Origin: Roseomonas sp. OT10
GTDB taxonomy: Bacteria; Pseudomonadota; Alphaproteobacteria; Acetobacterales; Acetobacteraceae
Direction: 5' to 3'
DNA length: 64,000 nt
Assembly (NCBI RefSeq): GCF_020991085.1
Contig: NZ_CP087719.1
Span: 3,492,001-3,556,000, forward strand
In this document: positions 11,256 to 61,611 of the stretch, one piece after another
Numbering within the stretch: the first letter of the stretch is position 1
How the letters are laid out: each line of letters opens with the position of its first letter
Translations under genes and position numbers: made by a program
The notes under the pieces: generated by a model
Databases searched by the model: none
What the model saw: the letters and a program-made list of their open reading frames with translations, nothing else
Told to the model about the DNA's origin: nothing

Positions 11256-11905
11256 TAACGGAGGGCCAGACGTCCTGGCCCATCGTGCTGTCGTGTTCAG
11301 GCGGGAGACGGGGGGGGGGACGCAGTCCCCTCTCAGACCCTCCCCCGCCGGGGCCACAAGCGGGGCCCGGATCCCGCCGGGAGTTTGATACGGTGAACGG
11401 CCTCTGAGCGGCATCGATGTGCCAGGCTCGCGGCTGTTGAGGTCAGCGAACGAAGGGTCCGTCCACCGTATCAAGCGCCTTGTGCGCGTGAGTTTGATTG
11501 AGAGCCGGGCCGCGGACTGCATCAGGGCCAGCGGCCAACAGGCCGGACACATGACCGCACCCGACCGCGGCCTCTCAACGTCCCATCCCACTTGCACCAA
11601 GGGGGCCGTCCACACATGGCTCTCCGGAGCTGCCGTCAGCCTGCGGGCTGAACCCTGACGAAACACGGACAGGCGGAACTCTGAAAAAGCTCAGAAGGTG
11701 TCAGCGAGGGCGGACGCCGTGCTCGCCGAGGAGCGTGGCTCCTCGGCGCCGTGATCCCGTCGCAGGCTGTCCCGCGGCAGCGCCAAATGGGTCCAGGGCC
11801 CGCAGGGTCCTGGCGGAGTGGGGGTACGGGGGCGAGGCAGCGCCTTGCCCCCGGGCCACGGGCGCACCCCGCGCCGGCACGGATCAACGCATCGCACCGA
11901 CCGGA
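11256..11905 (+). mobile_element. MITE-like element, subfamily 1, copy B (enlarged)
   Basis: The gap between the convergent glycosyltransferase and GST genes is almost wholly this element. Its left end is diverged, its right end reads CATCGCACCGACCGGA, and both sides are flanked by TGA (11253-11255, which is the glycosyltransferase stop, and 11906-11908). The shared blocks are present: a G-rich block with GGGGCCACAAGCGGG, the 23-nt hairpin at 11725-11747 (arms GCCGAGGAG/CTCCTCGGC), and GGGTCCAGGGCCCGC followed by a G-rich run. It is about 235 bp longer than its relatives because of extra sequence starting near 11385. No transposase or convincing gene is inside. Confidence 0.75.
11385..11474. 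repeat. Inverted repeat within the extra segment of copy B
   Basis: TTGATACGGTG (11385-11395) and CACCGTATCAA (11464-11474) form a perfect 11-bp inverted repeat around 68 bases of otherwise AT-richer sequence. It begins exactly where copy B departs from the other element copies, so it may mark the end of a second, nested insertion. A related TTTGATTGAG lies near 11491. No gene was recognised here. Confidence 0.55.
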
Positions 11906-11922
11906 TGAGGCGGCCTGCCGAC

Positions 11923-12543
11923 CTAACCCAACCCTTCCGCCGCCAGCACCTTCCGCACCGCCGCGTCCGCCGCGATGCGGTCGTGCAGCGCCTGCACCTG
12001 CGGGAAGGGTTCCAGCTTCTCCGGCAGCTTGCCGATGGCCCAGCGGAGCATCGGGAAGGCATAGGCGTCCACGATCGTCCGCGCCTCGCCCAGCAGGTAG
12101 GGGCGGTCCGCCAGATGCGCGTCCATCAGCGCGAGCCGCTTGCGCACCAGCCCCATCCCGGCCTCGCGCACGGCGGCGAGCGCGGCCTCGTCGGTCGCGG
12201 TGGTGTAGCGGTTGGGCATGAAGAGCGGGAAGAAGGCGGGGTGCAGATCGCCGGTCATGAAGGAGGACCAGCGGTCCAGTTCCGCCTGCGCCTTCGGGTC
12301 GGCGGGGGCGTCCAGCCCGGCCTCGGGGAAGCGGCGGGCCAGGTAGTGCAGGATCGCCCCGGCCTGGGTCAGCACCCAGCCAGTTTCGTCGCGCAGCACC
12401 GGGACGGCGCCGGCCGGGTTGACCGCCTTCAGCTCCTCCGAGCCGGTCTTCACCCGCTTCGCCTCGTACGGCTGGCCGATCCATTCCAGCACGACATGCG
12501 GCGCGAGGGAGCAGGCACCGGGCGAGTAGAACAGCGTGAGCAT
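11923..12543 (-). CDS. Glutathione S-transferase family protein
   Basis: A 206-residue cytosolic protein with an N-terminal thioredoxin-like domain (LTLFYSPGACSLAPHVVL with the catalytic-region Ser/Cys, then NPAGAVPVLRDE with the cis-Pro and TQAGAILHYLARRF) and an all-helical C-terminal domain. The segment LADRPYLLGEARTIVDAYAF matches the conserved N-capping/hydrophobic-staple region with its Asp. It resembles the bacterial beta-class-like GSTs. ATG at 12543 is preceded on the minus strand by GGGAGG. Likely role: glutathione conjugation or peroxide/thiol handling; the substrate is unknown. It is transcribed toward the element-bearing convergent gap. Confidence 0.9.
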   Translation of the reverse strand: MLTLFYSPGACSLAPHVVLEWIGQPYEAKRVKTGSEELKAVNPAGAVPVLRDETGWVLTQAGAILHYLARRFPEAGLDAPADPKAQAELDRWSSFMTGDLHPAFFPLFMPNRYTTATDEAALAAVREAGMGLVRKRLALMDAHLADRPYLLGEARTIVDAYAFPMLRWAIGKLPEKLEPFPQVQALHDRIAADAAVRKVLAAEGLG

Positions 12544-12651
12544 GGGACCTCCCGTTTCCGCCGCGGCGCGCGGCGCGGACCTCTCCTTCTGCCACCGCCC
12601 GGCGCGGGCCCGGAAGGGCGGGGCGGCATCAGGATGGCGCGAGGCCGGGGC

Positions 12652-13050
12652 TCAGCCCGGCAGGTGGTCCGGCCCGAAGGAATGCGGCAGCAGCTCCTCC
12701 AGCGTCGCGCTCAGCAGCACGCGCCCCGTGCCGTCCACCATCCGCACCCGCATCCCCGGAACGGCGAATTCGCGCAGCCGCTGCCGGCAGCCGCCACAGG
12801 GCGTGCAGGGCGCCGCGCTGTCGCCGACGACCACCGCCTCGGCGATGCGGGTGCCGCCGGCGAGCACCATGGCGCTGATCGCCCCCGCCTCGGCGCAGGC
12901 GCCCTGGGGGTAGGCGGCGTTCTCCACGTTGCAGCCGGCGATCACCATCCCCTCCACGGTCCGCAACGCGGCGCCGACGCGGAAGCGGGAATAGGGGACG
13001 TAAGCACGCTGCTGCGCCGCCAGCGCGGCCTCGATCAGCGGGTCGGACAT
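12652..13050 (-). CDS. cdd: Cytidine deaminase
   Basis: A 132-residue small-type cytidine deaminase converting cytidine/deoxycytidine to uridine/deoxyuridine. The zinc site is complete: Cys52-Ala-Glu54 (GACAEAG, Glu as proton shuttle) and Cys85/Cys88 in PCTPCGGCRQ. The substrate segment NVENAAYP is present. ATG at 13050 sits directly against the TAG stop of the upstream nucleoside permease (13051-13053), so it is the last gene of the salvage operon. It provides the first intracellular step for imported cytidine. Confidence 0.95.
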   Translation of the reverse strand: MSDPLIEAALAAQQRAYVPYSRFRVGAALRTVEGMVIAGCNVENAAYPQGACAEAGAISAMVLAGGTRIAEAVVVGDSAAPCTPCGGCRQRLREFAVPGMRVRMVDGTGRVLLSATLEELLPHSFGPDHLPG

Positions 13051-14013: not shown

Positions 14014-14363
14014 GGGCGCCTATCGCCCCCCGCGTCGTGTTGCGTGGCGCCCCCGGAGGAGGCTCCGCCTCCCCCGGCCCCCCTCCGCCGGGGGCGAGCC
14101 GGCCCCCGGACCCCGGCGGGAGTCTGGCGCCGGATGGTGCGGGTCCGGGCCGAACCGGACGGGCGCGCCGCCGGGCGAGGCGCCAGGACAATCCTCGACG
14201 GCGCCGATGCGGTACCCTCGGGCGCCAGAGGTCCTGGACCTCCGGCGAGGCGACCCCGTCGCAACCTTCCCGTGAATGGGGATCCAGGGGCTCTGCTCCT
14301 GGCGGAAGGGGGGCACGGGGGCGAAGGCGGAGCCTTCCCCCCGGGGGCCGGCGCGGCGCCGGA
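14014..14363 (+). repeat. Intergenic element, subfamily 2 (copy C)
   Basis: The 350-bp spacer between the two permease genes. It holds GGAGGCTCCGCCTCC near the left, CCCCTCCGCCGGGGGCGAG, the 23-nt hairpin at 14224-14246 (arms GCCAGAGGT/ACCTCCGGC, one mismatch) and GGATCCAGGGGCTCTGC followed by a G-rich run and CTTCCCCCCGGGGGCC. It ends exactly at the stop codon of the upstream permease (14364-14366, reading CCGGATCA, as at copy F). Orientation is antisense to the operon. No gene was found inside. Confidence 0.7.
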
Positions 14364-15524: not shown

Positions 15525-15777
15525 GTGGGCTCCGCCCGCAGGCCGAGCCAGAGGAACAAGGTATCAGGCGACGCACGCAGCCAGCCTGATCCGGCCATCA
15601 GCATGGGCTGCGGCCGATCCCGCTGGAGGTCCTGGACCTCCTGCGCGGCGACCCCGTCGAAACGCGCTGCGCGGCAGCGCCCACCGGGTCCAGGGCCCGC
15701 AGGGTCCTGGCGGAAAGGGGGTATCGGGGGAAAGGGGGAGCCTTTCCGCCGGGGAACGGATTGTACCCGTCTCCCGC
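15445..15777 (+). repeat. Intergenic element, subfamily 2/mosaic (copy D)
   Basis: The spacer between the nucleoside ATPase stop (15778) and the permease. It has a hairpin-forming GGGGGAGTGACCTCCCCC block, the 23-nt hairpin at 15622-15644 (arms GCTGGAGGT/ACCTCCTGC, one mismatch) and then GGGTCCAGGGCCCGCAGG, which is the subfamily-1 version of the third block. Copy D is thus a mosaic of the two subfamilies. It is antisense to the operon. It overlaps the 5' end of the longest permease frame, which is one reason to doubt that start. Confidence 0.65.
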
Positions 15778-17295: not shown

Positions 17296-17653
17296 GCGCG
17301 GCACCGTCGGACGAGGGGAGGCTCTGCCTCCCCCTCGACCCCCTCCGCCGGGGGCGAGCCGGCCCCCGGACCGCGGCAGGAGTTTGGCGCTGTATGGCAT
17401 GGGTCAGCCCACGGGCCGAACCGGGCGGGCGAGCGGACAGGCAGCGCATAAAAATCCATGCCGGCATCGGGCCGGCGGCACCTATGGGCGCCGGAGGTCG
17501 ATGACCTCCGGCGAAGCGACCCCGTTGCAACCGCCCCGTGAAAGGGGGTCCCGGAGCTCTGCTCCTGGCGGATGGGGGGTACGGGGGGATCGACGCACGG
17601 CGTCGATGCCGAAGGCCGGCGGAGCCTCTCCCCCCGGGCCACCGGCGCCACCG
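17296..17653 (+). repeat. Intergenic element, subfamily 2 (copy E)
   Basis: The 358-bp spacer between the BMP receptor and its ATPase gene. It contains CCCCTCCGCCGGGGGCGAG, the 23-nt hairpin at 17490-17512 (perfect arms GCCGGAGGT/ACCTCCGGC) and GGTCCCGGAGCTCTGCTCC followed by a G-rich run. A small extra palindromic insert (GATCGACG...CGTCGATGC near 17588-17611) interrupts the third block. Orientation is antisense to the operon. No gene was found inside. Confidence 0.68.
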
Positions 17654-18652: not shown

Positions 18653-18786
18653 GCGGGGCCTTCCGGGAGGGTTCCGTCCGGCGCAAGGCTGGGGGCGGGG
18701 CCGGGCGCAAGTCAATGGCGGGACGACGCCGCACCCCGGGCTGGGGGCGGGGGCGACGCCGTCACCTTCCCGTGGGCCGGGCGCGT

Positions 18787-18810: not shown

Positions 18811-18827
18811 AAGCTCCTGCTCGGGGT

Positions 18828-22250: not shown

Positions 22251-22275
22251 CATCGGGACACACCTGCCCGGATCA

Positions 22276-22677
22276 TACGCGCGGCGTGATGCGTTGACGT
22301 CTGCCGGACTGGTGCCCGTGGCCCGGGGGCAAGGCTCCGCCTCGCCCCCGATACCCCCACTCCGCCAGGACCCTGCGGGCCCTGGACCCGATCGGCGCTG
22401 CCGCGGGACAGCCTGCGACGGGGTCGCGGCGCCGAGGAGCCATGCTCCTCGGCGGGTACGGCCGCAGCACTCCCTGACGCCTACGAAGTTCTTATGGAGT
22501 CCCGCCTGTCCGCGCCCTCCCTGGGATCAGCCCGGAGGCTGACGGCAGCCGCGTAGAGCCAGACTCTCAGCGGGGTCCGGGGCCCGCTTGTGGCCCCGGC
22601 AGGGAGGGTCTGGGAGGGGACGGCGGCCCCTCCCGGTCCACCGCCGGGCCACCGGGCGCGACATCCCGCCGCCCGGA
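22276..22677 (-). mobile_element. MITE-like element, subfamily 1, copy F
   Basis: A 402-bp element between the convergent rnd and ppx genes. The ends are TACGCGCGGCGTGATG and, inverted, TCCGGGCGGCGGGATG. It is flanked on both sides by TCA (22273-22275 and 22678-22680); the right one is the complement of the ppx stop codon. The 23-nt hairpin is at 22431-22453 (perfect arms GCCGAGGAG/CTCCTCGGC). The blocks run in reverse relative to copies B, G, I and J. No transposase gene is present. Confidence 0.8.
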
Positions 22678-24216
22678 TCAGCCCGGGACTGGTGCGCCTT
22701 CCAGCACGGCCTTGAAGCCCAGAGCCAAGGCCAGTCCTTCCAGCCGGCGCTGTGCGCCCTCGCCGGCGAAGAGGCCCGAGCCAGGGGCCATATGCAGCCT
22801 CAGCACGCCGTCTCCGACCGCCAGGGAGGCGGCGGACAGCAGTGCCGGCGTACCGCCCGACAGGGTATAGGCCAAGCGCAGCGCCGCCCCCAGGATCTCC
22901 GCCCGGCGCAGTTCCGCCGCCCCCAGCAGGGGGCGGATCGTCGCGACCGTCGCCTCGTCCGGCGCGGATTCGTAGCGCAGCGCGACGGTCAGGGCGAGGA
23001 AGGCGCGGGCATGGTGGTCGAGGCCCACGCCGGGCTGCCGGAGCACGCGCAGGAAGGCCTGCTCGGCCCGGTAGTCGGGGTGGTCGTGGCTGCCGACGTC
23101 GGACAGCCAGCATGCCGCCTCGCGCAGCCCCCGCTCCTCCTCCGTCTCGTCGGGAAAGAGCGGCGCCGTCCAGCCGGCCAGCATCCGCGGCATCCCCAGG
23201 TCGCGGGAGAAGCGGGTGGCCAGGTCGCAGCTGGCGGTCAGCAGGGGGTCCGCCGCGCGCATCTGCGGCGACAGGCGGCGGCTGTACCAGCCCTCGCGCA
23301 GGCCGTTGGCGCTGAACACCACCCGCGCCGCGCCGGTCGCCCGCAGCAGCCGGCGCAGCGCGACGGCGGCGAAGGGCAGGTCGGCCACGCGCTTGGCTGG
23401 CGCGCCCGGCAGCTTCTCCAGCGCCGCGCGCTTGGCGTTGATCAGCACGGCGCAGAGGTCCCGCGCCTCCTCCCGGCGCAGCACGTAGTGATGCACGATG
23501 GAGAGCGGGTAGCGCGTCTGCGCCATGTGGATCCTGGCCATGGAGCGCCAGGCGCCGCCGACGAGGTAGAGGTCGCGATCCTTGCCACGCGCCAGCCAGG
23601 GCAGGGTGGCCAGGTCGGCCTCGGCGATGGCGCGGGCCCGCACCGGGTCGCCGCCGGCCCGCTCGCCCAGCCGGATCACGCCGAGGGACAGGCTCGCCGC
23701 CTCCCCCGCCCTGCCGGCGGAGAGGTCGACCACCTCCAGCGAGCCGCCGCCCAGATCGCCCAGGATGCCGTCCGCGCGGGGAAAGCCGAGGAGCACGCCA
23801 TCCGCCGAGAGGCGTGCCTCCGCCTCGCCGCTGAGGATGGTCAGCGGCACGCCGGGCATGCGCGCGCGCACCGCCTCGGCGAAGGCGGGGCCGTTGGAGG
23901 CGTCGCGCATGGCGGCGGTGGCCATGATCTCCAGCGGCGCGGCGTGCATCGCCTCCGCCACCGCGCGGTAGCGGTCGAGGATGGTCAGCGCCTGGGCCAC
24001 CGCCTCCTCGTTCAGCCGGCCGGTCGTCTCCAGCCCGCGCCCGAGGCCCAGCACCGCCTTCTCGTTGAAGATGGCCTGGGGGTTGCGCCCGCGCCCCTCG
24101 AAGACGACGAGGCGCACGGAGTTGGAGCCCAGGTCCACCACGCCGCAGCGCGGCGGCGGCACGGCCCCGGCCCCGCCCTCCGGGGGCAGGCCGGAGGTCA
24201 GGGTATCCGGCGCCAC
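22678..24216 (-). CDS. ppx: Ppx/GppA-type exopolyphosphatase
   Basis: About 512 residues. The ASKHA phosphatase fold is shown by CGVVDLGSNSVRLVVFEG (first phosphate loop), SGEAEARLS and LGDLGGGSLEVVDLSAG (second loop), then a C-terminal HD-like helical region with SDVGSHDHPDYRAEQAF. It removes terminal phosphate from polyphosphate and may act on pppGpp. The start lies at the ppk stop: GTG 24216 has AGGA six bases before it, and TTG 24222 would overlap the ppk TGA. Translation is therefore coupled to ppk1, whose product it degrades. The stop codon forms one flank of element F. Confidence 0.93.
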   Translation of the reverse strand: MAPDTLTSGLPPEGGAGAVPPPRCGVVDLGSNSVRLVVFEGRGRNPQAIFNEKAVLGLGRGLETTGRLNEEAVAQALTILDRYRAVAEAMHAAPLEIMATAAMRDASNGPAFAEAVRARMPGVPLTILSGEAEARLSADGVLLGFPRADGILGDLGGGSLEVVDLSAGRAGEAASLSLGVIRLGERAGGDPVRARAIAEADLATLPWLARGKDRDLYLVGGAWRSMARIHMAQTRYPLSIVHHYVLRREEARDLCAVLINAKRAALEKLPGAPAKRVADLPFAAVALRRLLRATGAARVVFSANGLREGWYSRRLSPQMRAADPLLTASCDLATRFSRDLGMPRMLAGWTAPLFPDETEEERGLREAACWLSDVGSHDHPDYRAEQAFLRVLRQPGVGLDHHARAFLALTVALRYESAPDEATVATIRPLLGAAELRRAEILGAALRLAYTLSGGTPALLSAASLAVGDGVLRLHMAPGSGLFAGEGAQRRLEGLALALGFKAVLEGAPVPG

Positions 24217-31738: not shown

Positions 31739-31897
31739 ATGGCCGAGGTTCAGACGAGTTACGAGATGGTGCCCGTGGCGGCGAAGGACATCCTCGCCGA
31801 TCGCCAGCATGGCTGGGACACCTTCATGCGCGCCACCCAGTGGGGCATCGGCGCCGTGGTGGTCCTGCTGGTGCTGATCTACCTGTTCTTCGGCTGA
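31739..31897 (+). CDS. aa3-type cytochrome c oxidase subunit IV-like peptide
   Basis: A 52-residue single-span membrane protein. After a short soluble head (AEVQTSYEMVPVAAKDILA) comes DTFMRATQWGIGAV and a membrane segment VVVLLVLIYLFF at the very C-terminus. This matches the small bacterial aa3 subunit IV family, which ends in F-x-F-x-[KR]-x(2)-x-W-like followed by one helix. ATG 31739 follows AGCAGGA at good spacing; an upstream in-frame ATG at 31715 lacks one. No other oxidase genes are nearby, so the link to aa3 oxidase rests on the family resemblance. The TGA stop (31895-31897) is also the left flank of element G. Confidence 0.72.
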   Translation: MAEVQTSYEMVPVAAKDILADRQHGWDTFMRATQWGIGAVVVLLVLIYLFFG

Positions 31898-32313
31898 TAC
31901 CGACGACGGGATGACCTGACCCGGCGTCCTGTCATGATCCGGCGTCGGACCGGGAGGGGACGCCGTCCCCTCCCAGACCCTCCCCTGCCGGGGCCACAAG
32001 CGGGCCCCTGTCCCCACTGGGAGGCTGGCTCTACGCGGTGGGCGTCATCCTCCGGACTGAAACGGAACGCGGACAGGCGGGACGCCAGAATAGCTCTGAA
32101 GGCGTCAGCGAGGGCGACGGCCGTACCCGCCGAGGAGCATGGCTCCTCGGCGCTGTGACCCCGTGTCCGGCTGTCCCGCGGCAGCGCTGATCGGGTCCAG
32201 GGCCCGCAGGGTCCTGGCGGAGTGGGGGTACGGGGGCGAGGCAGAGCCTTGCCCCCGGGCCACGGGCGCACCCCGCGCCGGCACGGATCAAGACATTTCG
32301 CCGTCCGTCCGTA
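31898..32313 (+). mobile_element. MITE-like element, subfamily 1, copy G
   Basis: A 416-bp element with left end TACCGACGACGGGATG and right end CATTTCGCCGTCCGTCCGTA (a CGTC duplication). TGA flanks both sides: 31895-31897, which is the stop of the subunit IV peptide, and 32314-32316. The 23-nt hairpin is at 32129-32151 (perfect arms GCCGAGGAG/CTCCTCGGC). It separates the purMN operon from its apparent terminator at 32366-32390. No transposase gene is present. Confidence 0.82.
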
Positions 32314-39438: not shown

Positions 39439-41301
39439 ATGACCGTCCTGACCATCCGTGACCTGACCGTCCGCCTCGCCGGCCGCACCCTGCTGGACGC
39501 GGCCTCGCTGCAACTGGACCCCGGGCGCAAGATCGGGCTGGTGGGCCGCAACGGCGCGGGCAAGTCCACCCTGTTCCGCGTGCTGACCGGGCAGTTGCAG
39601 CCCGATGGCGGCGAGGTCCGCTTCGCCGCCCGCGCCCGCATGGCCTATCTGGCGCAGGAGGCGCCGGGCGGCGACGCCTCTCTGCTGGAGACGGTGCTGG
39701 AGGCGGATACCGAGCGCGCCGCCCTGCTGGCCGAGCTGGAGGCGGGGATCGTCCCGGAGCGGGAGGCAGAGGTGCACGAGCGCCTGCGCGCCATCGCCGC
39801 CGATGCCGCGCCCGCGCGGGCGGCCACGGTGCTCTCCGGCCTGGGCTTCGACGCGGCGGCGCAGGCGCGGCCGGTGGGCGAGTATTCCGGCGGCTGGCGC
39901 ATGCGCGTGGCGCTGGCCCGGGCGCTGTTCCTGGAGCCCGACCTGCTGCTGCTGGACGAGCCGACCAACCACCTCGACCTGGAAGCCACGATCTGGCTGG
40001 AGAGCTGGCTGAAGCGTTTCCCGGGTGCGGCCATCATCATCAGCCACGACCGCGACCTGCTGGACCGCTGCGTGGACGGGATCGCGCATCTGGAGCGCGG
40101 CACCATCACCAGCTACCCGGGCGGCTACGGCGAGTTCCTGCGCATCCGCAACGAGCGCCGGGCGCAGCAGGTGGCGCAGAACGCCAAGGTCGCGGCCGAG
40201 CGGGCGCACATGCAGGCCTTCGTGGACCGCTTCCGCTACAAGGCGTCCAAGGCGCGGCAGGCGCAGTCGCGGCTGAAGGCGCTGGAGAAGCTGCCGCCGA
40301 TCGAGGCGGTGACGGAGGACCGCGTCACCCCCTTCGCCTTCCCCGAGCCGGCGGAGGTGGCGCCGCCGATCCTGACCATGGAGCACGCCGCCACCGGCTA
40401 TGACGGCCGGCCGATCCTGCGCAACCTCGACCTGCGGCTGGACCAGGACGACCGCGTGGCGCTGCTGGGCTCCAACGGCAACGGCAAGTCCACGCTGGCC
40501 AAGCTGATCGCCGGCCGCCTCGCGCCCATCGAGGGCGAGGTGCGCCGCACGCCGCGGCTGAAGGTCGGCTTCTTCGCGCAGCACCAGGCGGAGGAGCTGG
40601 ACCTCGACGGCACGCCGCTCACCCACATGCAGGCGGCGCTGCCCAAGGCGACGGAGACGCAGTGCCGTGCCCAGCTCGCGCGCTTCGGCCTCGACGTGGA
40701 CCGCGCGACGACGCGCATCGCCGACTGCTCGGGCGGCGAGAAGGCGCGGCTGCTGCTGGCGCTCTGCACGCGCGAGGCGCCGCAGCTCCTCATCCTCGAC
40801 GAGCCGACCAACCACCTCGACATGGATGCGCGGGAGGCGCTGATCCGCGCGCTGGCCGATTACGGCGGCGCCGTGCTGCTCATCACCCACGACCCGCGCC
40901 TGGTCGAGCTGGTGGCCGACCGGCTGTGGCTGGTGGCGGACGGCACGGTGCGCAGCTTCGACGGCGACATGGACGACTATCGCGGCTTCCTCGCCGACCG
41001 CGCCCGCCCGGCGGCACGCGATGCGGGCCCCGCGAAGCGCGACGACCGGCGCGGCCGCGCCGAGGCCCGCGCGGCGCTGGCCCCCCTGCGCGAGCGGGTG
41101 AAGGAGATCGAGGCGCGGATCGAGAAGCTGAAGCTGGAGGACGGGCTGATCGAGCGCAAGCTCGCCGACCCCGACTTCTATGCCAAACGCAAGGCGTCCG
41201 ACATCACCTGGGCCAACACCCGCCGCGCCGCCATCGCCCACCAGATCGGCCTGCTAGAAGAGGAATGGCTGGAACTGTCGGAGCGGCTGGAGGCGGCGTG
41301 A
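39439..41301 (+). CDS. ABC-F family ATPase (YheS/Uup-like)
   Basis: A 620-residue soluble tandem ATPase without membrane part. Domain 1: Walker A GRNGAGKSTLFRV, signature YSGGWRMRVALARAL, Walker B LLLLDEPTNHLDLEA. Domain 2: GSNGNGKSTLAKL, CSGGEKARLLLAL, LLILDEPTNHLDMDA. Between them is the basic linker ARMAYLAQE through KASKARQAQSRLKALEKL, the ABC-F arm/linker. The C-terminus is a coiled-coil (LAPLRERVKEIEARIEKLKL). ABC-F proteins act on the ribosome in translation or antibiotic protection. The TGA stop at 41299-41301 lies within the degenerate left end of element H. Confidence 0.95.
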   Translation: MTVLTIRDLTVRLAGRTLLDAASLQLDPGRKIGLVGRNGAGKSTLFRVLTGQLQPDGGEVRFAARARMAYLAQEAPGGDASLLETVLEADTERAALLAELEAGIVPEREAEVHERLRAIAADAAPARAATVLSGLGFDAAAQARPVGEYSGGWRMRVALARALFLEPDLLLLDEPTNHLDLEATIWLESWLKRFPGAAIIISHDRDLLDRCVDGIAHLERGTITSYPGGYGEFLRIRNERRAQQVAQNAKVAAERAHMQAFVDRFRYKASKARQAQSRLKALEKLPPIEAVTEDRVTPFAFPEPAEVAPPILTMEHAATGYDGRPILRNLDLRLDQDDRVALLGSNGNGKSTLAKLIAGRLAPIEGEVRRTPRLKVGFFAQHQAEELDLDGTPLTHMQAALPKATETQCRAQLARFGLDVDRATTRIADCSGGEKARLLLALCTREAPQLLILDEPTNHLDMDAREALIRALADYGGAVLLITHDPRLVELVADRLWLVADGTVRSFDGDMDDYRGFLADRARPAARDAGPAKRDDRRGRAEARAALAPLRERVKEIEARIEKLKLEDGLIERKLADPDFYAKRKASDITWANTRRAAIAHQIGLLEEEWLELSERLEAA

Positions 41302-41705
41302 TGCGTTGATCCGTGCCGGCGTGGGGTGCGCCCGTGGCCCGGGGGCAAGGCTCCGCCTCGCCCCCGATACCCCCACTCCGCCAGGACCCTGCGGGCCCTG
41401 GACCCGAAGGGCGCTGCCGCGCGGATGAGTGCGACGGGCTCGATGCGCCGAGGAGCCATGCTCCTCGGCGGGTACGGTCACCGCTCGCTGACGCCCTCTA
41501 AAAGCTTTCTTCAGAGTCCCGCCTGTCCGAGCTCTGTCAGGGTTCAGCCCGGAGGCTGACACCCCCCGAAAGCGCCAGACTCCCAGCGGGGACCGGGGCC
41601 CGCTTGTGGCCCCGGCAGGGGAGGGTCTGGGAGGGGACGGCGTCCCCTCCCGGTCCTCTGCCGGAACACCACAGCACAACGGGTCAGGTCATCCCGCCGT
41701 CCGCA
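41292..41705 (-). mobile_element. MITE-like element, subfamily 1, copy H
   Basis: A roughly 414-bp reversed copy between the convergent ABC-F and Bug-receptor genes. The right end is perfect (CATCCCGCCGTCCGCA) and is followed by TGA (41706-41708). The left end (GGCGGCGTGATG at 41292-41303) matches 10 of 12 and overlaps the last codons and stop of the ABC-F gene; no matching target duplication is seen on this side. The 23-nt hairpin is at 41447-41469 (perfect arms GCCGAGGAG/CTCCTCGGC). No gene inside. Confidence 0.78.
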
Positions 41706-54371: not shown

Positions 54372-54560
54372 GCGCCAAGGCCCGGGCGGCGGCGGAGGTT
54401 CGGGCAGCGAGACTCGTCTGGCATGGGCACAGCTTCGCCGCCCTGCGGCGGGGCTGTCGACCCGGGCCGGGCCTGGGGCGGCCCCCGGGGGAAGGCCGTG
54501 GGGGTCTTGGCGGACGGGATCGCGCGGTCCCTGCTGTTTACAGGGCGCCCGCCGCCCGGT

Positions 54561-54662: not shown

Positions 54663-54670
54663 ACGAACCC

Positions 54671-54699
54671 AAGGCCCCGCCGGCGAGCGGCGGGGTCTT
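54671..54699 (+). terminator. Strong hairpin between small ORF and asd
   Basis: AAGGCCCCGCCG and CGGCGGGGTCTT form a 12-bp stem (one G-U pair) with a five-base loop. It ends 50 bases before the asd start. It may be an attenuator terminator or a leftover terminator of the small ORF. No long T-run follows (TCTTG only). Confidence 0.5.
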
Positions 54700-54749
54700 G
54701 CCAAGCCAGACCCCCGCTGCCCGCCCGGCCCACTCCGGAGCACGCGACG

Positions 54750-55823
54750 ATGAGTCTGGTCGAACCCGCCCAATCCCTCTCCCCCGAAGCCGCGGTGACG
54801 CAGAGCCTCGACGCCCCGCTGGTCGCCATCGTCGGCGCCACCGGCGCGGTCGGCGTCGAACTGCTGCGCTGCCTGGAGGAGCGGGACTTCCCCCTCTCCG
54901 GCCTGCGCCTGCTCGCCTCGCCGCGCTCCGCCGGGCAGACCTTCCGCTTCCGCGGCCAGGAACTGACCGTCGAGGCGCTGGGGCCGGACAGCTTCGAGGG
55001 CGTGGGCCTCGCCCTCTTCTCGGCCGGCAGCGGCGTGTCGAAGCAGTACGCCTCGCTCGCCGTCGCGGCCGGCGCGGTGGTGGTGGACAACTCCTCCGCC
55101 TTCCGCATGGACGCCGCCGTGCCGCTGGTGGTGCCGGAGGTGAACGGCGACGCGATCGCCCGGCACAAGGGCATCGTCGCCAACCCGAACTGCGTGGCCG
55201 CCATCGCCACCGTACCGCTCTGGCCGCTGCACCAGCGCCACCGCATCCGCAAGGTGATCGCCGCCACCTACCAGGCCGCCTCGGGCGCCGGCGCCGCGGC
55301 GATGGAGGAGCTGCGCCAGTCTACCGCCGCCTACCTGGCCGGCGAGGCCTTCGAGCCGCGCGTGCTGCGCCACCCCTATGCCTTCAACCTGTTCAGCCAC
55401 GATTCCGCGATGGACCCGGAGACCGGGACCAATGGCGAGGAGTCGAAGGTGATGGCCGAGACGAAGCGCATCCTGAACCTGCCCGACCTCGCCATGGGCA
55501 TCACCTGCGTCCGCGTCCCCGTCCTGCGCGCCCACTGCATCGCCCTGACCGTGGAGTTCGCCGAGCCGGTGACGCCGCAGGCGGTGCGCGACCTGCTCGC
55601 CGCCGCCCCGGGGGTGCGCGTGGTGGATGACGCGGCGAGCAACCACTACCCGATGCCGGTCGAGGCCTCGGGCCAGGGCGACGTGCTGGCCGGCCGCATC
55701 CGCCAGGACAGCAGCGACCCCTCGGGCCGCACCGTCTCGCTCTTCGTGGCAGGCGACCAACTGCTGAAGGGCGCAGCGCTGAACGCGGTGCAGATCGCGG
55801 AGCGGCTGGTCGGGCGGAGCTGA
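54750..55823 (+). CDS. asd: Aspartate-semialdehyde dehydrogenase
   Basis: A 357-residue NADP-dependent enzyme making aspartate semialdehyde, precursor of lysine/diaminopimelate, threonine and methionine. VAIVGATGAVGVELLRCLEE is the nucleotide fold, VVVDNSSAFRMD and VPEVNGDAI follow, Cys148 in NPNCVAAI is the catalytic thiol, and VIAATYQAASGAGAAAMEEL with RVPVLRAHCIALTVEF complete the family pattern. ATG 54750 has CCGGAG nine bases upstream. The ~20-residue N-terminal extension before the fold is longer than in many homologues. Confidence 0.96.
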   Translation: MSLVEPAQSLSPEAAVTQSLDAPLVAIVGATGAVGVELLRCLEERDFPLSGLRLLASPRSAGQTFRFRGQELTVEALGPDSFEGVGLALFSAGSGVSKQYASLAVAAGAVVVDNSSAFRMDAAVPLVVPEVNGDAIARHKGIVANPNCVAAIATVPLWPLHQRHRIRKVIAATYQAASGAGAAAMEELRQSTAAYLAGEAFEPRVLRHPYAFNLFSHDSAMDPETGTNGEESKVMAETKRILNLPDLAMGITCVRVPVLRAHCIALTVEFAEPVTPQAVRDLLAAAPGVRVVDDAASNHYPMPVEASGQGDVLAGRIRQDSSDPSGRTVSLFVAGDQLLKGAALNAVQIAERLVGRS

Positions 55824-55926
55824 GGCGCCGCTCCCCGAGCGAAGCCTCGCCTCCCCCGGACCCCGCCGCGGGCCAGCTCGCGCCGGGGGCCGCGCCGTAG
55901 AGCAGGCGAGGCTGAAGCGGGCGTCA

Positions 55927-56343
55927 TACCGACGGCGGGATGACCTGGCCCGTCGTGCTGTGGTGTTCCGGCGGCGGACCGGGAGGGGACGCCGTCCCCT
56001 CCCAGACCCTCCCCTGCCGGGGCCACAAGCGGGCCCCGGTCCCCGCTGGGAGTCTGACGCTTCCGGTGGGCGTCAGCCTCCGGGCTGAACCCTGACGGCG
56101 CGCGGACAGGCGGGACTCTGAAAAAGCTTTGAAGGCGTCGGCAATTGCTGCGGCCGTACCCGCCGAGGAGCATGGCTCCTCGGCGCCGTGACCCCGTGTC
56201 AGGCTGTCCCGCGGCAGCGCTGATCGGGTCCAGGGCCCGCAGGGTCCTGGCGGAGTGGGGGTACGGGGGCGAGGCAGAGCCTTGCCCCCGGGCCACGGGC
56301 GCAGCGCTGCACCGGCGCGGATCAAGGCATCCCGCCGTCCGTC
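55927..56343 (+). mobile_element. MITE-like element, subfamily 1, copy I
   Basis: A 417-bp element, the best-preserved ends: left TACCGACGGCGGGATG, right CATCCCGCCGTCCGTC, containing a perfect 12-bp inverted core. Both sides are flanked by TCA (55924-55926 and 56344-56346). The 23-nt hairpin is at 56162-56184 (perfect arms GCCGAGGAG/CTCCTCGGC). It lies between convergent asd and yncE-like genes but about 100 bp away from either stop. The 100 bp to its right hold a short piece of a subfamily-2 block (GGCGGAGGCTTCCCCC). No gene inside. Confidence 0.85.
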
Positions 56344-56444
56344 TCACACGGCCGCGCGTGCCGCGGCGTTCGTGGAGGGGGGGCCGGGGGCGAGGCGGAG
56401 GCTTCCCCCGGCGGGCTGTCGCAGGGCGGCGGGCGTGCCCTGGA

Positions 56445-57536
56445 TCAGATCCGGATCAGGCTGACCGTATCGCCGTTCGGATCGTCCGGCGGCGGGGCGC
56501 CGCGTTCGCCGGTCTTCGCCTTGTTCGAGACGTAGGCGGCGCCGTTGCGGTGATCCACCGCGACGGTGTTGGGGTGCGTCCCGGTGGGCAGGCTGGCGAG
56601 GATCGACAGGCCCTTGCCGTCGACCACGCTGGTCGTCCCGGCGCGGCGGTTGGTGACGAAGACAAGGCCGTTGGAGGGGGAGAAGGTCACGCCCAGGGCG
56701 CCGTCGCCGGTCGGCAGGCTGCCGACCACCGCCCCGCTGCCGGCGTCCAGCACCGTCAGCGTGCCGCTCTTCTGGTTGGTGACGAAGAGCCGGTTCTGCG
56801 CCGGGTCCAGCGCGACGTTCACCGCGCCCTCGCCGCCCGAGGCGAAGCGGCGCAGCACGCGGCGGCCGGCGACGTCGATCTCCACGACCTCGTTGCTGCC
56901 CAGCGCCGTGGCGAAGAGGCGGCCGCGCCCGGCATCCAGGGCCAGGCCGGTGATGCCGCCCTGCTCCAGCCCCGCCTCCAGCACGTGGTCGATGCGGTTC
57001 GCCGCCCCGTCGATCACCCAGATCGCACTGGGCTTGTCGCGCGCCCCGAAGGCGGTGACGTAGATGCGGTTCGCCGCCTCATCCACCACCGCCTGGCGCA
57101 GATGGGCGCCTTCGCCATGGGCGATCCGCGCCACGACGGTGCCGGCCTTCAGGTCGATGGCGGACACGCTGCCGCTGCGCGTGTTGGTGGCGTAGGCCAT
57201 CTGGGTGCGGTCATTCAGGCCCAGGCCGAAGCCCGGCTCGGCCAGCGCGATGCGCCCCTTCTCCTCCAGCGTGCGCGGGTCCAGCGCGACAAGGGCGGCG
57301 TCGTTGCCGCCGCGGGTGCCGACGCTGGCGACATAGACCGTGTCGCGGGCGGCGCTGACGGCGATCTCGTAGAGGGAGGGCGCGATCTTGCGGCTGCGCT
57401 CGACCGTGGGCGTGGCGGCGCGGGCGGGGCGGAGCGCGGGCAGCAGGACCAGGCCCGAGGCGGCGGCCAGCAACCCCCGGCGCGCGAGGCGCGGCACGGC
57501 GGACCGGACGGCGGTCGGGGGGGTGCGGAGGGTCAT
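56445..57536 (-). CDS. YncE-like seven-bladed beta-propeller, exported
   Basis: A 363-residue protein with a signal peptide (RRGLLAAASGLVLLPALRP, cleaved near ARAAT). The mature part is a chain of YVTN-type repeats: NDAALVALDPRTLEEKGRIA, GSVSAIDLKAGTVVARIAHG, NEVVEIDVAGRRVLRRFASG, GTLTVLDAGSGAVVGSLPTG and GTTSVVDGKGLSILASLPTG. ATG 57536 follows GGAG; the gene runs leftward from a Fur-box-like site. In E. coli, yncE is part of the Fur regulon, so iron control here fits. A role in iron acquisition or as a periplasmic scaffold is inference. Confidence 0.88.
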   Translation of the reverse strand: MTLRTPPTAVRSAVPRLARRGLLAAASGLVLLPALRPARAATPTVERSRKIAPSLYEIAVSAARDTVYVASVGTRGGNDAALVALDPRTLEEKGRIALAEPGFGLGLNDRTQMAYATNTRSGSVSAIDLKAGTVVARIAHGEGAHLRQAVVDEAANRIYVTAFGARDKPSAIWVIDGAANRIDHVLEAGLEQGGITGLALDAGRGRLFATALGSNEVVEIDVAGRRVLRRFASGGEGAVNVALDPAQNRLFVTNQKSGTLTVLDAGSGAVVGSLPTGDGALGVTFSPSNGLVFVTNRRAGTTSVVDGKGLSILASLPTGTHPNTVAVDHRNGAAYVSNKAKTGERGAPPPDDPNGDTVSLIRI

Positions 57537-57593
57537 GACCCTGTCTCCTCTGGCCTGGCGGATGGGGCGGCTCCCGGCGCCACCCGGATCATC

Positions 57594-57612
57594 GATAATG
57601 AAAGTCGTTATC
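57594..57612. promoter_or_regulatory. Fur box-like 19-mer
   Basis: GATAATGAAAGTCGTTATC matches the classical 19-bp Fur consensus at 16 of 19 positions and is strongly AT-rich in this GC-rich genome. It lies 58 bp upstream of the yncE-like start and 138 bp upstream of the S9 peptidase gene, in a divergent promoter region. The site probably makes at least the leftward gene iron-repressible. In many alphaproteobacteria Fur acts on manganese and Irr or RirA on iron, so the acting regulator is not certain. Confidence 0.7.
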
Positions 57613-57749
57613 AATATCCAGGGGAGGAGTCCTCACCCTTCCGCGGACGGCCCCCCCCTGGCGGGGCGGCCATCCGACCGGGGCGGGGCACGTGCGATTC
57701 CGGCGCGGCGAGACTTGACCGGGCGGGGCGACAGGTCTGCCGTGGCGGG

Positions 57750-59546
57750 ATGCGAGAACCCCGCCCCCAGGATCTGGTCGACCGCTACCTCGCCGCGCGC
57801 GCGGCCAGCGCCCCCTCCTATGCCGCCGACGGCCGGCTCTACGTCCTCAACGACGCGGACGGCTCGGCGCAGGTCTGGGAGCTGCCGGCCGATGGCGGCC
57901 CGGCCCGGCCGCGCAGCGCGCATCGCGACGCGGTGGCCTTCGTCGCCGGCAGCCCGGCGGATGGCGGCGCCGTCTTCGGCCGCGACCAGGCGGGCGACGA
58001 GCGGGTGCAGCTCCATGCCCTGCCGCCGGAAGGCGAGGCGCGGGCGCTGACCGCGGCGCCGGGGGTGATCCATGGCTGGGGCGCCTTCTCGCCGGACGGG
58101 CGGCAGGTCGCCTGCACCGCCAACAGCCGCGACCCGGCGCATACCGATCCCTGCGTGATCGACCTCGCCACCGGCACGCTGCGCCGGCTGCACGAGGTCG
58201 AGGGGCCGCACGAGCTGCCCGGCTGGACGCCGGACGGGCGCGCGGTGGTGCTCTCCACCGCACCGCGCACCTTCGAGGGCGACCTGGTGCGGGTGCCGCT
58301 GGATGGCGGCGCGGCGACGCCCCTCACCCCGCATGACGGCGATGCCCGGCACATGGAGCCGCGCTGGCGGCAGGACGGGACGGGCTTCTGGCTGCTGACC
58401 GATCGCGGCCGCGACTTCCTCGGCCTGGCCTTCCAGGAGCCCGGCGGGGAGCCGCGCTTCCTCTTCGCCCCGGAGGCGGATGTGGAGCGGCTGGAGGTCT
58501 CGCCCGACCAGCGCCGGCTCGCGGTGGCGGTGAACGAGGGGGGCTATTCCCGCCTGCGCCTGCTGGACGCGGCGACGGGCGCGGTGCTGGAGGAGCCGTC
58601 GCATCCGCGCGGCGTCATCACCAAGCTGAGCTGGCATCCGGACGGCGGGGCGCTGGCCTTCGACCTCGCCCGGCCGATCCGTCCCGGCACGATCTGGCGC
58701 CACCGGCCCGGTGCCGCGGCGGCCGAGGAGATCTTCGCCGCGAGCGCGGCGCCCGAGGCGGTGCGCGACTGGTCGACGGTGGAGTTTCCGACCTTCGATG
58801 GCCGCCGCATTCCCGCCTTCCTGGCGCTGCCGGAGGGCGACCCGCCCGAGGGCGGCTGGCCGGTGCTCCTCTGGGTGCATGGCGGCCCGGCGATGCAGGC
58901 ACTGCCGAACTGGCGGCCGGACCTCCAGGCCGCGCTGGCACTGGGCCTCGCCGTGATGGTGCCCAACGTCCGCGGCTCGACCGGCTATGGCCGCGCCTAT
59001 GCGGCGCTGGACGACCGGGAAAAGCGGATGGACAGCGTGCGCGACCTCGCCGCCGCGCATGCCTGGCTGGGGACGCAGCCAGGGCTGGACGGGTCGCGCA
59101 TCGCCATCATGGGGCAGAGCTACGGCGGCTGGATGGTGCTCGCCGCCGTGACGGAATACCCGGAGCTGTGGGCCTGCGGCATCGACTACTACGGCATCGC
59201 GCGGTGGAAGACCTTCTTCGAGCGCACCGGACCCTGGCGCGTCGGCCATCGCGCGGCGGAGTACGGCGACCCGGTCGCGGATGCGGCGCTGCTGGAATCC
59301 CTCTCGCCGCTGCACAAGGCGGACCGCATCCGCTGCCCGATGTTCGTCGCGCAAGGGCTGACCGACCCGCGCGTGCCGCCCTGGGAGAGCGAGCAGATCG
59401 TCGAGGCCCTGCGCCGCCATGGCATCCCGGTGGAGTACGTGACCATCCCCGACGAGGGTCACGGCTTCCTGAAGCGGCAGAACCGCCGCACCGTCTACGC
59501 TGGCGTCCTCGGCTTCCTGGCACGCCACATGCTGGACCGGGGGTGA
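57750..59546 (+). CDS. S9 family peptidase (prolyl oligopeptidase/acylaminoacyl-peptidase-like)
   Basis: A 598-residue enzyme. The N-terminal half is a WD40/TolB-like beta-propeller (SPDGRQVACTANSRDPAHTD, LPGWTPDGRAVVLSTAP); the C-terminal half is an alpha/beta hydrolase with the triad Ser457 (IMGQSYGGWMVL), Asp539 (GLTDPRVPP) and His571 (PDEGHGFLKR) and the WVHGGP oxyanion segment. No signal peptide is seen, so it should be cytoplasmic. ATG 57750 has only a weak ribosome site. The peptide-type receptor gene follows 53 bases later, suggesting uptake and degradation of peptides. Confidence 0.92.
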   Translation: MREPRPQDLVDRYLAARAASAPSYAADGRLYVLNDADGSAQVWELPADGGPARPRSAHRDAVAFVAGSPADGGAVFGRDQAGDERVQLHALPPEGEARALTAAPGVIHGWGAFSPDGRQVACTANSRDPAHTDPCVIDLATGTLRRLHEVEGPHELPGWTPDGRAVVLSTAPRTFEGDLVRVPLDGGAATPLTPHDGDARHMEPRWRQDGTGFWLLTDRGRDFLGLAFQEPGGEPRFLFAPEADVERLEVSPDQRRLAVAVNEGGYSRLRLLDAATGAVLEEPSHPRGVITKLSWHPDGGALAFDLARPIRPGTIWRHRPGAAAAEEIFAASAAPEAVRDWSTVEFPTFDGRRIPAFLALPEGDPPEGGWPVLLWVHGGPAMQALPNWRPDLQAALALGLAVMVPNVRGSTGYGRAYAALDDREKRMDSVRDLAAAHAWLGTQPGLDGSRIAIMGQSYGGWMVLAAVTEYPELWACGIDYYGIARWKTFFERTGPWRVGHRAAEYGDPVADAALLESLSPLHKADRIRCPMFVAQGLTDPRVPPWESEQIVEALRRHGIPVEYVTIPDEGHGFLKRQNRRTVYAGVLGFLARHMLDRG

Positions 59547-59599
59547 CCGCGCCGGCGACGGGTCGGGAACCGCACCACCACCGCATCGGGAGAAACGGG

Positions 59600-61177
59600 A
59601 TGAGGCGTAGGGACTTCCTGGCATCCGCCGCGGCGACCACTGCCCTCGCGGCGCTGTCGCGCCCCGCCCTGGCGCAGGGCAACGCGCGGCTGCTGCGCTT
59701 CGTGCCGGAGGGCAACCTCGCCAACCCGGACCCGGTCTGGACCACCACCACCGTCGCGCGCAACCACGGCGCGATGATCTGGGACATGCTCTATGCCCGC
59801 GACGACCGCTTCGATCCGCAGCCGCAGATGGTGGCGGGGCACGAGCTGTCGGACGACAGGCTGACCTGGCGCTTCGCCCTGCGCGAGGGGCTGGTCTTCC
59901 ACGACGGCGAGCCGGTGCGGGCGGTGGACTGCCTTGCCAGCATCCAGCGCTGGGCACGGCGCCGACCGCTGGGGCAGACGCTGCTGGAGCGCACGGCGGA
60001 GATGAAGGCGCTGGACGACCGGCGCTTCGAGATCCGGCTGAACAAGCCCTATGCGCTGATCCTGCAGGCCTTCGCCGACAGCTGCTTCATGATGCCGGAG
60101 CGGATCGCGAAGACGGATTCCTTCACCCAGATCACGGAATACGTCGGCAGCGGCCCCTACCGCTTCCTGCGCGACGAATGGGTCTCCGGCTCCCAGGCCG
60201 CCTATGCGCGCTTCGACCGGTACGTGCCCCGCCCGGAGAAGCCGAGCTTCCTCGCGGGCGGCAAGGTCGCGAACTTCGACCGCGTGCTGTGGCAGGTGAT
60301 GCCCGACCCGGCGACGGCGATGGCGGCCCTGCAGAACGGCGAGGTCGACTGGGTGCAGCAGCCTTCCTACGACCTGGTCGGCAGCCTGCGCCGCGTGCGC
60401 GGCGTGAAGGTCGCGGTGAACGACAAGGTCGGCGTGATGGGGATGGTCGCGCTGAACCACCTCCACCCGCCCTTCGACAACCCGAAGCTGCTGCGCGCCA
60501 TCCTGGGTGCGGTGAACCAGGACGACTTCATGCAGGCCGCGGTGGGCGCCGAGCCGGAGCTGTTCCGCGTGCCCTGTGGTGTCTTCACCCCCGGCCTGCC
60601 CATGGCGACCGATGCGGGGATGGAGGTCCTGACCGGCCCGCGCGACATCGAGCGCAGCAAGCGCGAGGTGGCAGCGAGCGGCTACAAGGGCGAGCGGGTG
60701 ATCGTCATGTCGCCCTCGGACTACCCGCATACCCAGGCCATGGCACAGGTCACGGCGGACCTGATGAAGCGGCTCGGCCTGAACGTCGAGTACGCCAGCA
60801 TGGACTGGGGCACGCTCGTCTCCCGCCGCACCAGCAAGGAGCCGCCGGAGAAGGGCGGCTGGAACGCCTTCTGCACCACCTACGAGGGGCTGACCGTCGC
60901 CGACCCCGCGACCCACATCCCCCTGCGCGGCAACGGCCCCAACGCCTGGTTCGGCTGGCCCACCAGCCCGCGGCTGGAGGATCTGCGCAACCAGTGGCTC
61001 GACGCGCCCGACACCGCCGCGCAGAAGCGCATCGCCGACCAGATGCAGGTGATCGCCTTCGAGGAGGTGCCTTTCCTCCCGCTCGGCCAGCTCTTCAACC
61101 CCACCGCCTTCCGGGAGAACGTGGTGGACATCGTGCCTGCCTCCTTCCCGATCTTCTGGGGCGCACGGAAGGTGTAG
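59600..61177 (+). CDS. ABC transporter substrate-binding protein, family 5 (peptide type)
   Basis: A 525-residue receptor with a Tat-like leader (MRRRDFLASAAATTALAAL, cleaved near ALAQG). Family-5 segments: WDMLYARDDRFDPQPQMVAG, LTWRFALREGLVFHDGEPVR, YALILQAFADSCFMMPERI, GSGPYRFLRDEW and RRVRGVKVAVNDK. ATG 59600 follows GGGAGAAACGGG. No permease genes follow; the element J intervenes, so the partner transporter is encoded elsewhere. Ligands of the family include peptides, glutathione, nickel and opines; with an S9 peptidase just upstream a peptide is the best guess. Confidence 0.9.
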   Translation: MRRRDFLASAAATTALAALSRPALAQGNARLLRFVPEGNLANPDPVWTTTTVARNHGAMIWDMLYARDDRFDPQPQMVAGHELSDDRLTWRFALREGLVFHDGEPVRAVDCLASIQRWARRRPLGQTLLERTAEMKALDDRRFEIRLNKPYALILQAFADSCFMMPERIAKTDSFTQITEYVGSGPYRFLRDEWVSGSQAAYARFDRYVPRPEKPSFLAGGKVANFDRVLWQVMPDPATAMAALQNGEVDWVQQPSYDLVGSLRRVRGVKVAVNDKVGVMGMVALNHLHPPFDNPKLLRAILGAVNQDDFMQAAVGAEPELFRVPCGVFTPGLPMATDAGMEVLTGPRDIERSKREVAASGYKGERVIVMSPSDYPHTQAMAQVTADLMKRLGLNVEYASMDWGTLVSRRTSKEPPEKGGWNAFCTTYEGLTVADPATHIPLRGNGPNAWFGWPTSPRLEDLRNQWLDAPDTAAQKRIADQMQVIAFEEVPFLPLGQLFNPTAFRENVVDIVPASFPIFWGARKV

Positions 61178-61193
61178 GGCGGCGCCGGGCTCA

Positions 61194-61611
61194 TACCGGT
61201 GGTGGGATGACCTGGCCCGTCATGCTGTGGTGTTCCGGCGTGGGACCGGGAGGGGACGCCGTCCCCTCCCAGACCCTCCCCTGCCGGGGCCACAAGCGGG
61301 CCCCGGTCCCCGCTGGGAGTCTGGCGCTACAGGGCTGCCGTCAGCCTCCGGATTCAGCCCTGACGGCGCGCGGACAGGCAGGACTCTGAAAAAGCTTCAG
61401 AGGGCGTCAGCGAGCGCGGCGGCCGGTCCCGCCGAGGAGCCCTGCTCCTCGGCGCCGTGACCCCGTATCCGGCTGTCCCGCGGCAGCGCTGATCGGGTCC
61501 AGGGCCCGCAGGGTCCTGGCGGAGTGGGGGTACGGGGGCGAGGCAGAGCCTTGCCCCCGGGCCACGGGCGCACCCCACGCCGGCATGGACCGGCGCATCC
61601 CGCCGTTCGTA
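61194..61611 (+). mobile_element. MITE-like element, subfamily 1, copy J
   Basis: A 418-bp element between convergent receptor and purD genes. Left end TACCGGTGGTGGGATG, right end CATCCCGCCGTTCGTA. Both sides carry TCA (61191-61193 and 61612-61614); the right one is the complement of the purD stop codon. The 23-nt hairpin is at 61431-61453 (perfect arms GCCGAGGAG/CTCCTCGGC). Block order is the same as in copies B, G and I. No transposase gene. Confidence 0.83.

Follow-up and report, generated by a model that had tools for sequence, protein, structure and literature searches.

A family of short inverted-repeat elements docked mostly at stop codons, with a conserved hairpin core, in Roseomonas sp. 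OT10

Contig NZ_CP087719.1 of Roseomonas sp. OT10 (hereafter C1) harbors a dispersed family of non-coding elements of about 415 bp, which was studied starting from a window of 64,000 nucleotides (C1:3492001-3556000, 73.7% GC) in a genome of 5.69 Mb with three contigs. The elements end in terminal inverted repeats (TIRs) of about 16 bp with the consensus TACSGACGGCGGGATG, no transposase gene is found inside them, and most copies with both ends recognised are flanked by identical triplets, TGA or TCA in all cases but one; three quarters of these copies directly abut the stop codon of a neighboring gene. It is probable that they constitute a genuine family of miniature inverted-repeat transposable elements (MITEs), dispersed by insertion at a short palindromic target and endowed with a structured core that is kept by selection.

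Copy number and target duplication

A 29-base core sequence of the element was matched 213 times in the genome (112 forward, 101 reverse; at most three mismatches), against 0 matches for the reversed control; the first 100 of these matches, those listed, are all exact and all on C1. A TNA triplet followed by the TIR (at most one mismatch) can be found at 82 sites, every one on C1, and no copy was found in the 100 kb sampled from contig C2 (286 kb). Two sets of copies were then compiled. The first comes from 60 stretches of 20 kb around exact core matches together with the window (1.264 Mb), in which nhmmer gave 113 hits, or 111 after chaining; both ends could be recognised (at least 11 of 16 bases at each end) in 64 of the 111, which are 394-447 bp long, and the 47 others were not counted. 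The second comes from 40 stretches elsewhere on C1, picked mostly by overall similarity or by TIR, where both ends were recognised in 35 of 45 long hits.

Identical triplets flank 65 of the 99 copies with both ends. In the first set they are found in 42 of 64 copies (24 TGA, 18 TCA), against 22.3 when flanking partners are shuffled, and among the 44 copies in which both flanks are TGA or TCA only 2 show a mismatch; in the second set they are found in 23 of 35 (13 TCA, 9 TGA and 1 TTA), against 11.8. Copy B of the window is outside the 64, and copy G, with a 4-bp duplication at its right end, was scored as unmatched though it lies between TGA and TGA. A C precedes the left triplet in 49 of the 64 first-set copies and, more weakly, in 14 of the 35 second-set copies, and a G follows the right triplet in 41 of 64 and 23 of 35, respectively. 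The target is thus C-TSA-G, with a 3-bp TSA duplication. Short non-coding sequence with TIRs, target site duplication (TSD) and multicopy dispersal are attributes of a MITE, and all three are seen here.

A previous sequence-only reading of the window had described a MITE-like family with TIRs and TNA duplications, represented by six copies (B, F, G, H, I and J) with TGA/TGA flanks for B and G and TCA/TCA flanks for F, I and J. All six are present at about the positions given there and are members of the family, the flanks are read directly in the sequence, and the proposed anatomy is borne out by the two copy sets (42/64 and 23/35 identical triplets). Its list, correct as regards these six, left out four core-only relatives lacking these ends. 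Nor did this reading recognise most of the triplets as stop codons, or the interior as an older hairpin repeat shared across the genus.

Docking at stop codons

Gene context was established with a home-made codon model trained on 148 long open reading frames (ORFs), which called 1080 genes, 885 of them with a TGA stop. Zero-gap contact with a stop codon is found for 75 of the 99 copies, that is, 50 of 64 in the first set (stop on the left in 27, on the right in 23) and 25 of 35 in the second. Among the 36 docked copies with matching triplets, TGA accompanies a left stop in 19 and TCA a right stop in 17, the orientation that a stop rebuilt by the duplication should show. The two element ends are docked equally often, in a ratio of 25:25 among the 50 first-set copies. 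In the window, copies B, F, G and J dock at a stop and copy I does not.

The copies also favor one arrangement of neighboring genes, convergent gaps holding 74 of the 99. The first set comprises 49 copies in convergent and 15 in tandem gaps, the second 25 and 8, with 2 unresolved; in neither set is a copy found in a divergent gap or inside a gene. In 15 evenly spaced stretches of C1, some of which overlap the first set, an element occupies 6 of 38 convergent gaps against 0 of 188 others, while on C2 the count is 0 of 86 gaps. In the window, elements are found in 6 of 7 convergent gaps and in 4 of 46 others, these four being the core-only relatives.

How much of the docking follows from the target itself can be estimated from the occurrence of CTSAG in element-free gaps, where it is part of a stop codon 171 times and lies elsewhere 59 times. 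With the gap of each copy rebuilt and sites weighted for the neighboring bases (8 for C and 3 for G, weights chosen after seeing the flanks), 32.1 (standard deviation, sd, 2.1) of the 42 matched copies are expected at stops, against 36 observed, and 42.4 (sd 2.4) of all 60 scorable copies, against 48 observed; the unweighted expectations are 26.8 of 42 and 36.4 of 60. Target sequence alone therefore puts most copies at stops, and a small excess is left. Since C-TSA-G outside genes is mostly a TGA stop in this GC-rich genome, and since the duplication regenerates the stop, availability and selection explain most of the docking.

The small excess, which also appears in tandem gaps (9 of 10 matched copies at stops, against 6.0, sd 1.2, weighted and 2.95 unweighted), and the strong convergent bias could be taken to mean that the transposition machinery is actively led to translation stops or convergent gene ends, beyond its preference for C-TSA-G. 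Such targeting is unlikely: the excess above availability amounts to only about 2 sd for the matched copies and relies on weights picked post hoc, no excess at stops is seen in convergent gaps (27 against 26.1 of 32), and the two ends of the element are docked equally often. The convergent bias needs more than the target sequence, the simplest reason probably being that insertions which interrupt an operon or a promoter are selected against.

A conserved hairpin core

Among 70 copies from the genome, the blocks H1, H2, H4, H5 and H6 are 95.6-99.6% conserved (the value for H5 being inflated by the choice of stretches), against 84.0 and 84.2% for the two TIRs and 84.0-86.9% for the linkers. The same holds when only G/C columns are considered (hairpins 97.9-99.7%, TIRs 86.7 and 85.5%, linkers 86.3-89.0%), and in a sample of 5 window copies and 5 copies without the exact 29-mer (hairpins at least 95.6%, linkers 84.0-88.2%, TIRs 83.8-92.5%, the right TIR reaching 92.5% in the five copies without the 29-mer). 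A purely selfish MITE, whose hairpins are constrained just by the needs of transposition and whose copies have no role for the host, would agree with the TIR and TSD anatomy, the high copy number and the failure to find the ends in 14 congeners. It would, however, be expected to show TIRs at least as conserved as the interior, contrary to the 84% and 95.6-99.6% seen in the 70 copies, and the hairpins are retained both by congener copies and by those local copies that lack these ends; we therefore regard this explanation as a doubtful one, to be kept as a minority view.

Base pairing was assessed in an alignment (A1) of 47 of 56 reference copies, nine being omitted for length. In H4 and H5, standard pairs make up 98.7% of 854 cells, and 56 cells have changed on both sides, against 12.8 after shuffling. 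Their covariation score is 0.197, against 0.070 for shuffles (0 of 500 as high) and at most 0.047 for slid controls, with the proviso that shared descent can lift related sequences above such shuffles. One pair of H5 occurs as C-G, G-C, A-U and U-A, and the CGGA which follows H5 is nearly invariant. The automatic consensus of RNAalifold is weak (covariation term -0.88), perhaps as a result of gaps blurring the helices, and the predicted fold of copy I departs from shuffled sequences with z = -6.8 on the plus strand and -4.9 on the minus strand.

Inverted arms that match almost perfectly, in several alternative sequence versions, could also arise by mutation alone, if template switching in quasi-palindromes copied one arm onto the other and so mimicked compensatory changes. 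This is rather improbable as a full account, given that template switching explains complementarity but neither the 95.6-99.6% primary conservation of the hairpin blocks within one genome nor the nearly invariant CGGA.

Relatives and the age of the ends

The ends and the core differ in their distribution. The TNA triplet with TIR (at most one mismatch) has 82 matches at home and none in 14 congeners; for the reversed control there are 0 matches at home and 1 in one congener. With the full element as query, full-length matches are obtained at home only; partial matches (E at most 0.001) are found in 10 of the 14 congeners, the best ones within query positions of about 225-403, and beyond the genus in 3 of 21 further genera of the same family and in 1 of 24 genomes from elsewhere in the class, these last four and several of the congener matches being marginal and the best 11 candidates per genome having been scored. 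Congener stretches picked for holding hits contain 14 copies in 140 kb (G012), 17 in 213 kb (G003) and 5 in 34 kb (G004), which keep the order of the hairpins and, as judged by eye, lack the ends of the home element. At home, 16 of the 111 chained elements also lack both ends, and the 10 lowest-scoring core-only elements resemble the congener form, all 10 lying in tandem gaps. A scan of genome contigs gave a single match, 67% identical, in a metagenome bin labelled Asaia bogorensis (L154), and no match to copy I was found in plasmid and phage collections. To judge from these sequence comparisons, the ends appear to be newer, and the interior is apparently an older, genus-wide structured repeat.

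Regarding sites without the element, relatives of the genes to the right of copies F and J are present in 14 of 14 congeners, where the left neighbors could not be located alongside. Orthologous gene ends were compared in nine cases, of which two align up to a stop codon and none beyond it, the congeners being too diverged; in several of the nine, the gene compared differs from the one at which the element is docked. Among ten congener 3' ends matched in stretches picked for elements, an element lies within 100 bp in 2 and at least 2 kb away in 8. In G003 (L178:1193-1472), the protein match of the relative of the gene to the right of copy J ends about 28 bp from a core element.

The cases in which orthologous congener gene ends also hold a core element (L178; 2 of the 10 matched ends) would suit old intergenic repeats inherited by descent without any transposition, the triplet matches being coincidence or paired stop codons. 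This reading is highly implausible: triplet identity is far above shuffles in both sets, docked copies have one triplet that is a stop and one that is not, the TIR was not found in any of the 14 congeners, and the other 8 matched 3' ends are far from any element.

Search for a mobilizing transposase

Targets of TNA type with a 3-bp duplication are a trait of the IS1031 group (IS, insertion sequence) (PMC12016507). The sequence-only reading had proposed an IS1031-like transposase as the mobilizer, a proposal which the TNA target fits and with which the IS5-type ends that could be defined here disagree. IS5-type transposases are encoded in the genome at 26 places matching PF13340 and 34 matching PF01609, and 56 IS5-type loci were examined, both for MITE-like ends and for pairs of TNA-flanked ends at a spacing of 600-1800 bp. 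End pairs were recovered at 11 loci, several of them weak, with ends such as GAACCCGTTTCATA, and at none of the 45 others, which include the commonest IS type (12 copies); the ends of the element were seen at 0 of the 11 definable loci. An IS1031-like partner therefore stays conjectural, the 11 definable end pairs being unlike TACSGACGGCGGGATG and 45 of the 56 loci having given no pair. Mobilization by a RAYT, as for REP sequences, was set aside, the genome having 0 matches to the Y1 transposase family PF01797.

In the 1.264 Mb, pairs of MITE ends 500-6000 bp apart consist of two that join separate MITEs and two weak matches. Of the 82 near-perfect ends, 81 lie in the stretches analyzed, all 81 at core-bearing copies, where the last one (C1:3815911), beside the 80 others, belongs to a copy with an internal deletion. 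The partner transposon may have been lost, may have diverged or may reside elsewhere. As a separate observation, IS5-type transposases are crowded on C2 (15 of 26 DUF4096 places), yet element copies number 0 in the 100 kb sampled there; among plasmid records sharing an IS5-type stretch of C2, 27 of 30 are from Roseomonas.

Proposed mode of insertion

It can be hypothesized that a putative transposase supplied in trans made cuts staggered by 3 bp at C-TNA-G, and that the duplicated triplet would re-create the stop codon, so that the gene would stay whole. Insertions in genes, in promoters and in most operon gaps would be removed by selection. The TIRs would have been added to, or would have captured, the older genus-wide structured repeat, and its hairpins would be kept by selection, most likely for an action at the 3' ends of genes, in RNA or as palindromes in DNA, where they might form a two-way barrier or a 3'-end protector between converging transcripts.

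Several results weigh against this proposal. No transposase with these TIRs was found in the genome, either among definable IS5-type ends or in the end-pair scan, and no base-level empty site was shown among the congener gene ends compared. The docking counts depend on home-made codon-model gene calls, and the conservation of the 29-mer is inflated, the first 60 stretches having been chosen for an exact core. With respect to the helices, two measures exceed shuffles only slightly: 6 pairs show both-sided change (4.4 in shuffles, 55 of 500 reaching this value) and further pair types number 17 (14.0 in shuffles, 11 of 500 reaching this value). A strong terminator should avoid tandem gaps, where the 10 lowest-scoring core-only relatives all sit. 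Finally, U-tract terminators predicted in 55000-62000, which includes copies I and J, number 0, with 1.1 expected by chance, and Rfam at gathering score has 0 matches in the window; the barrier role therefore rests on placement and conservation.

Reassortment of variants among copies

The copies are 79-92% identical in pairs (mean 86%). A second letter reaches 14 or more of the 70 copies at 55 of 418 positions; at 36 of those positions, the two remaining letters together account for at most 5%. Linkage was measured at 44 two-letter positions, chosen for at least 90% of two letters: r2 falls from 0.26 at 1-2 bp to 0.06 at 11-20 bp, and at distances above 20 bp it is close to that of shuffled data. 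Of the site pairs at least 6 bp apart, 98-100% show all four combinations, and, provided that no change recurred, a minimum of 37 exchange points is required. In the second set (38 copies), r2 takes successive values of 0.46, 0.35, 0.16 and 0.06 before settling at 0.03-0.04 (null, about 0.03), and all four combinations occur in 79% of pairs at 6-10 bp and in 94-98% beyond. Two-letter variants are thus reassorted among the copies of this genome (L009-L068, L227-L266), with linkage near the shuffled level beyond about 20-40 bp.

We take this pattern to reflect very short-patch exchange among the dispersed copies, which could also have taken place before their spread. Transitions and transversions stand at 23:30 among frequent variants and 68:87 among single variants, the same mix, and this spectrum leaves repeated mutation at weakly constrained sites possible as an explanation. 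Exchange is favored because third letters are scarce and linkage is short-range. Tentatively, and with the odds rather against it, the copies could be pictured as a freely recombining population (short-patch ectopic exchange) in which the older hairpin core is held constant by selection, at many gene ends, as a working 3'-end RNA structure, spread by stop-regenerating transposition. The reassortment was the least expected result and lies outside the original finding.

Copies and other features of the window

The positions of the copies, of their parts and of the core-only relatives are given in Table 1. Copy B has only a weak TIR at its left end and owes its length to an added internal segment of about 235 bp, parts of which recur, with 89-91% identity, in L023 and L028. 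Copy H is entered by the plus-strand gene 39439-41301, which reads into the truncated element (41288-41301) and stops at a TGA inside it. The four core-only relatives lack the ends of the family and nearly fill tandem gaps, whereas TIR-type copies favor convergent ones. Elsewhere on the genome, a copy at L249:2912-3250 has lost H1 and H2 through an internal deletion and lies about 70 bp from a tRNA-Thr gene (3318-3392). Apart from the elements, the window holds a direct repeat of 293 nt, 71% identical (7863-8155 and 8981-9273), inside neighboring genes, which are possibly paralogues.

Table 1. Elements of the family, their parts and their relatives in the window (window coordinates)
Feature	Position	Strand	Remarks
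Core-only relative, diverged	4636..4934	-	tandem gap
Copy B	11256..11905	+	TIR-type, 650 bp; TSD TGA 11253-11255 and 11906-11908; left TGA = stop codon of + gene 10050-11255 (by eye)
Copy B, extra internal segment	11387-11625		own inverted ends GATACGGTG/CACCGTATC
Core-only relative, diverged	14055..14345	+	tandem gap
Core-only relative, partial	15596..15761	+	tandem gap
Core-only relative, diverged	17308..17648	+	fills tandem gap
Copy F	22276..22677	-	TSD TCA 22273-22275 and 22678-22680; right TCA = stop codon of - gene 22678-24216
Copy G	31898..32313	+	TSD TGA both sides; left TGA = stop codon of a called + ORF of 52 codons, 31739-31897, less certain as a gene because short
Copy H	41288..41705	-	right TGA retained, left end truncated
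Copy I	55927..56343	+	TSD TCA both sides; convergent gap, about 100 bp to either gene, no stop docking
Copy I, left TIR	55927..55942	+	TACCGACGGCGGGATG
Copy I, hairpin H1	55979..56003		coordinates hand-counted from the sequence
Copy I, hairpin H2 region	56011..56054		
Copy I, hairpin H4	56161..56185		covarying helix
Copy I, hairpin H5	56230..56250		covarying helix; overlaps the 213-match core
Copy I, hairpin H6	56264..56290		
Copy I, right TIR	56328..56343	-	
Copy J	61194..61611	+	TSD TCA both sides; right TCA = stop codon of - gene 61612-62892

Comparison with known systems

In the literature covered, from which subscription papers are largely absent, neither the Roseomonas family nor a MITE docking at stop codons was found described. 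The family offers a countable case of a mobile element that fills a gene-dense genome without breaking genes, its palindromic target coinciding with the stop codon and its duplication rebuilding the stop. It can also be regarded as a natural experiment on exaptation, with a structured core kept while the ends decay, and on exchange between dispersed repeats, with more than 100 copies carrying reassorted variants.

Hairpin-forming mosaic intergenic repeats are represented by REP/BIME and RIME-type sequences, and REPs spread with Y1/RAYT transposases. The Roseomonas family differs from REP in having TIRs and TSDs, in a genome without a Y1_Tnp match. In Caulobacter, the CIR sequence is an intergenic hairpin repeat (PMC2229807). 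The Roseomonas family resembles REP/BIME, RIME and CIR in forming hairpins, in being intergenic and in its mosaic make-up.

Bacterial MITEs such as RUP and Correia/NEMIS are presented as short, non-coding, multicopy and mainly intergenic elements with TIRs and a target duplication, whose ends are usually shared with an autonomous transposon, the partner not always being known in bacteria; IS630-Spn1, with similar ends, is the proposed partner of RUP, and RNA roles have been proposed for insertions downstream of genes (PMC2229807). The Roseomonas family is likewise short, non-coding, multicopy and mainly intergenic, with TIRs and a target duplication, but it is GC-rich and about 415 bp long, has TSA duplications mostly on stop codons and ends less conserved than the interior, and, unlike RUP, has no partner found in its own genome.

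As to the IS1031 group, a TGA target is documented and the 17-bp end of ISLrh is given as GAACCTGTC... (PMC12016507). The 3-bp TNA duplication is common to this group and to the Roseomonas family, whereas neither the ISLrh end GAACCTGTC... nor the IS5-type ends measured here (GAACCCGTT...) resemble TACSGACGGCGGGATG.

The mycobacterial MIRU, with a DTGA target, is the nearest analogue for gene-sparing insertion overlapping a start or stop signal. There, insertion is reported to be at start codons, with translational coupling, and the gene survives (PMC12548453, PMC2734929). Compared with MIRU, the Roseomonas family has TIRs and docks on stop codons, mainly between convergent genes, and coupling cannot apply to the 74 of 99 copies in convergent gaps. 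The family is a variant of the known bacterial MITE kind, with a structured core that looks exapted.

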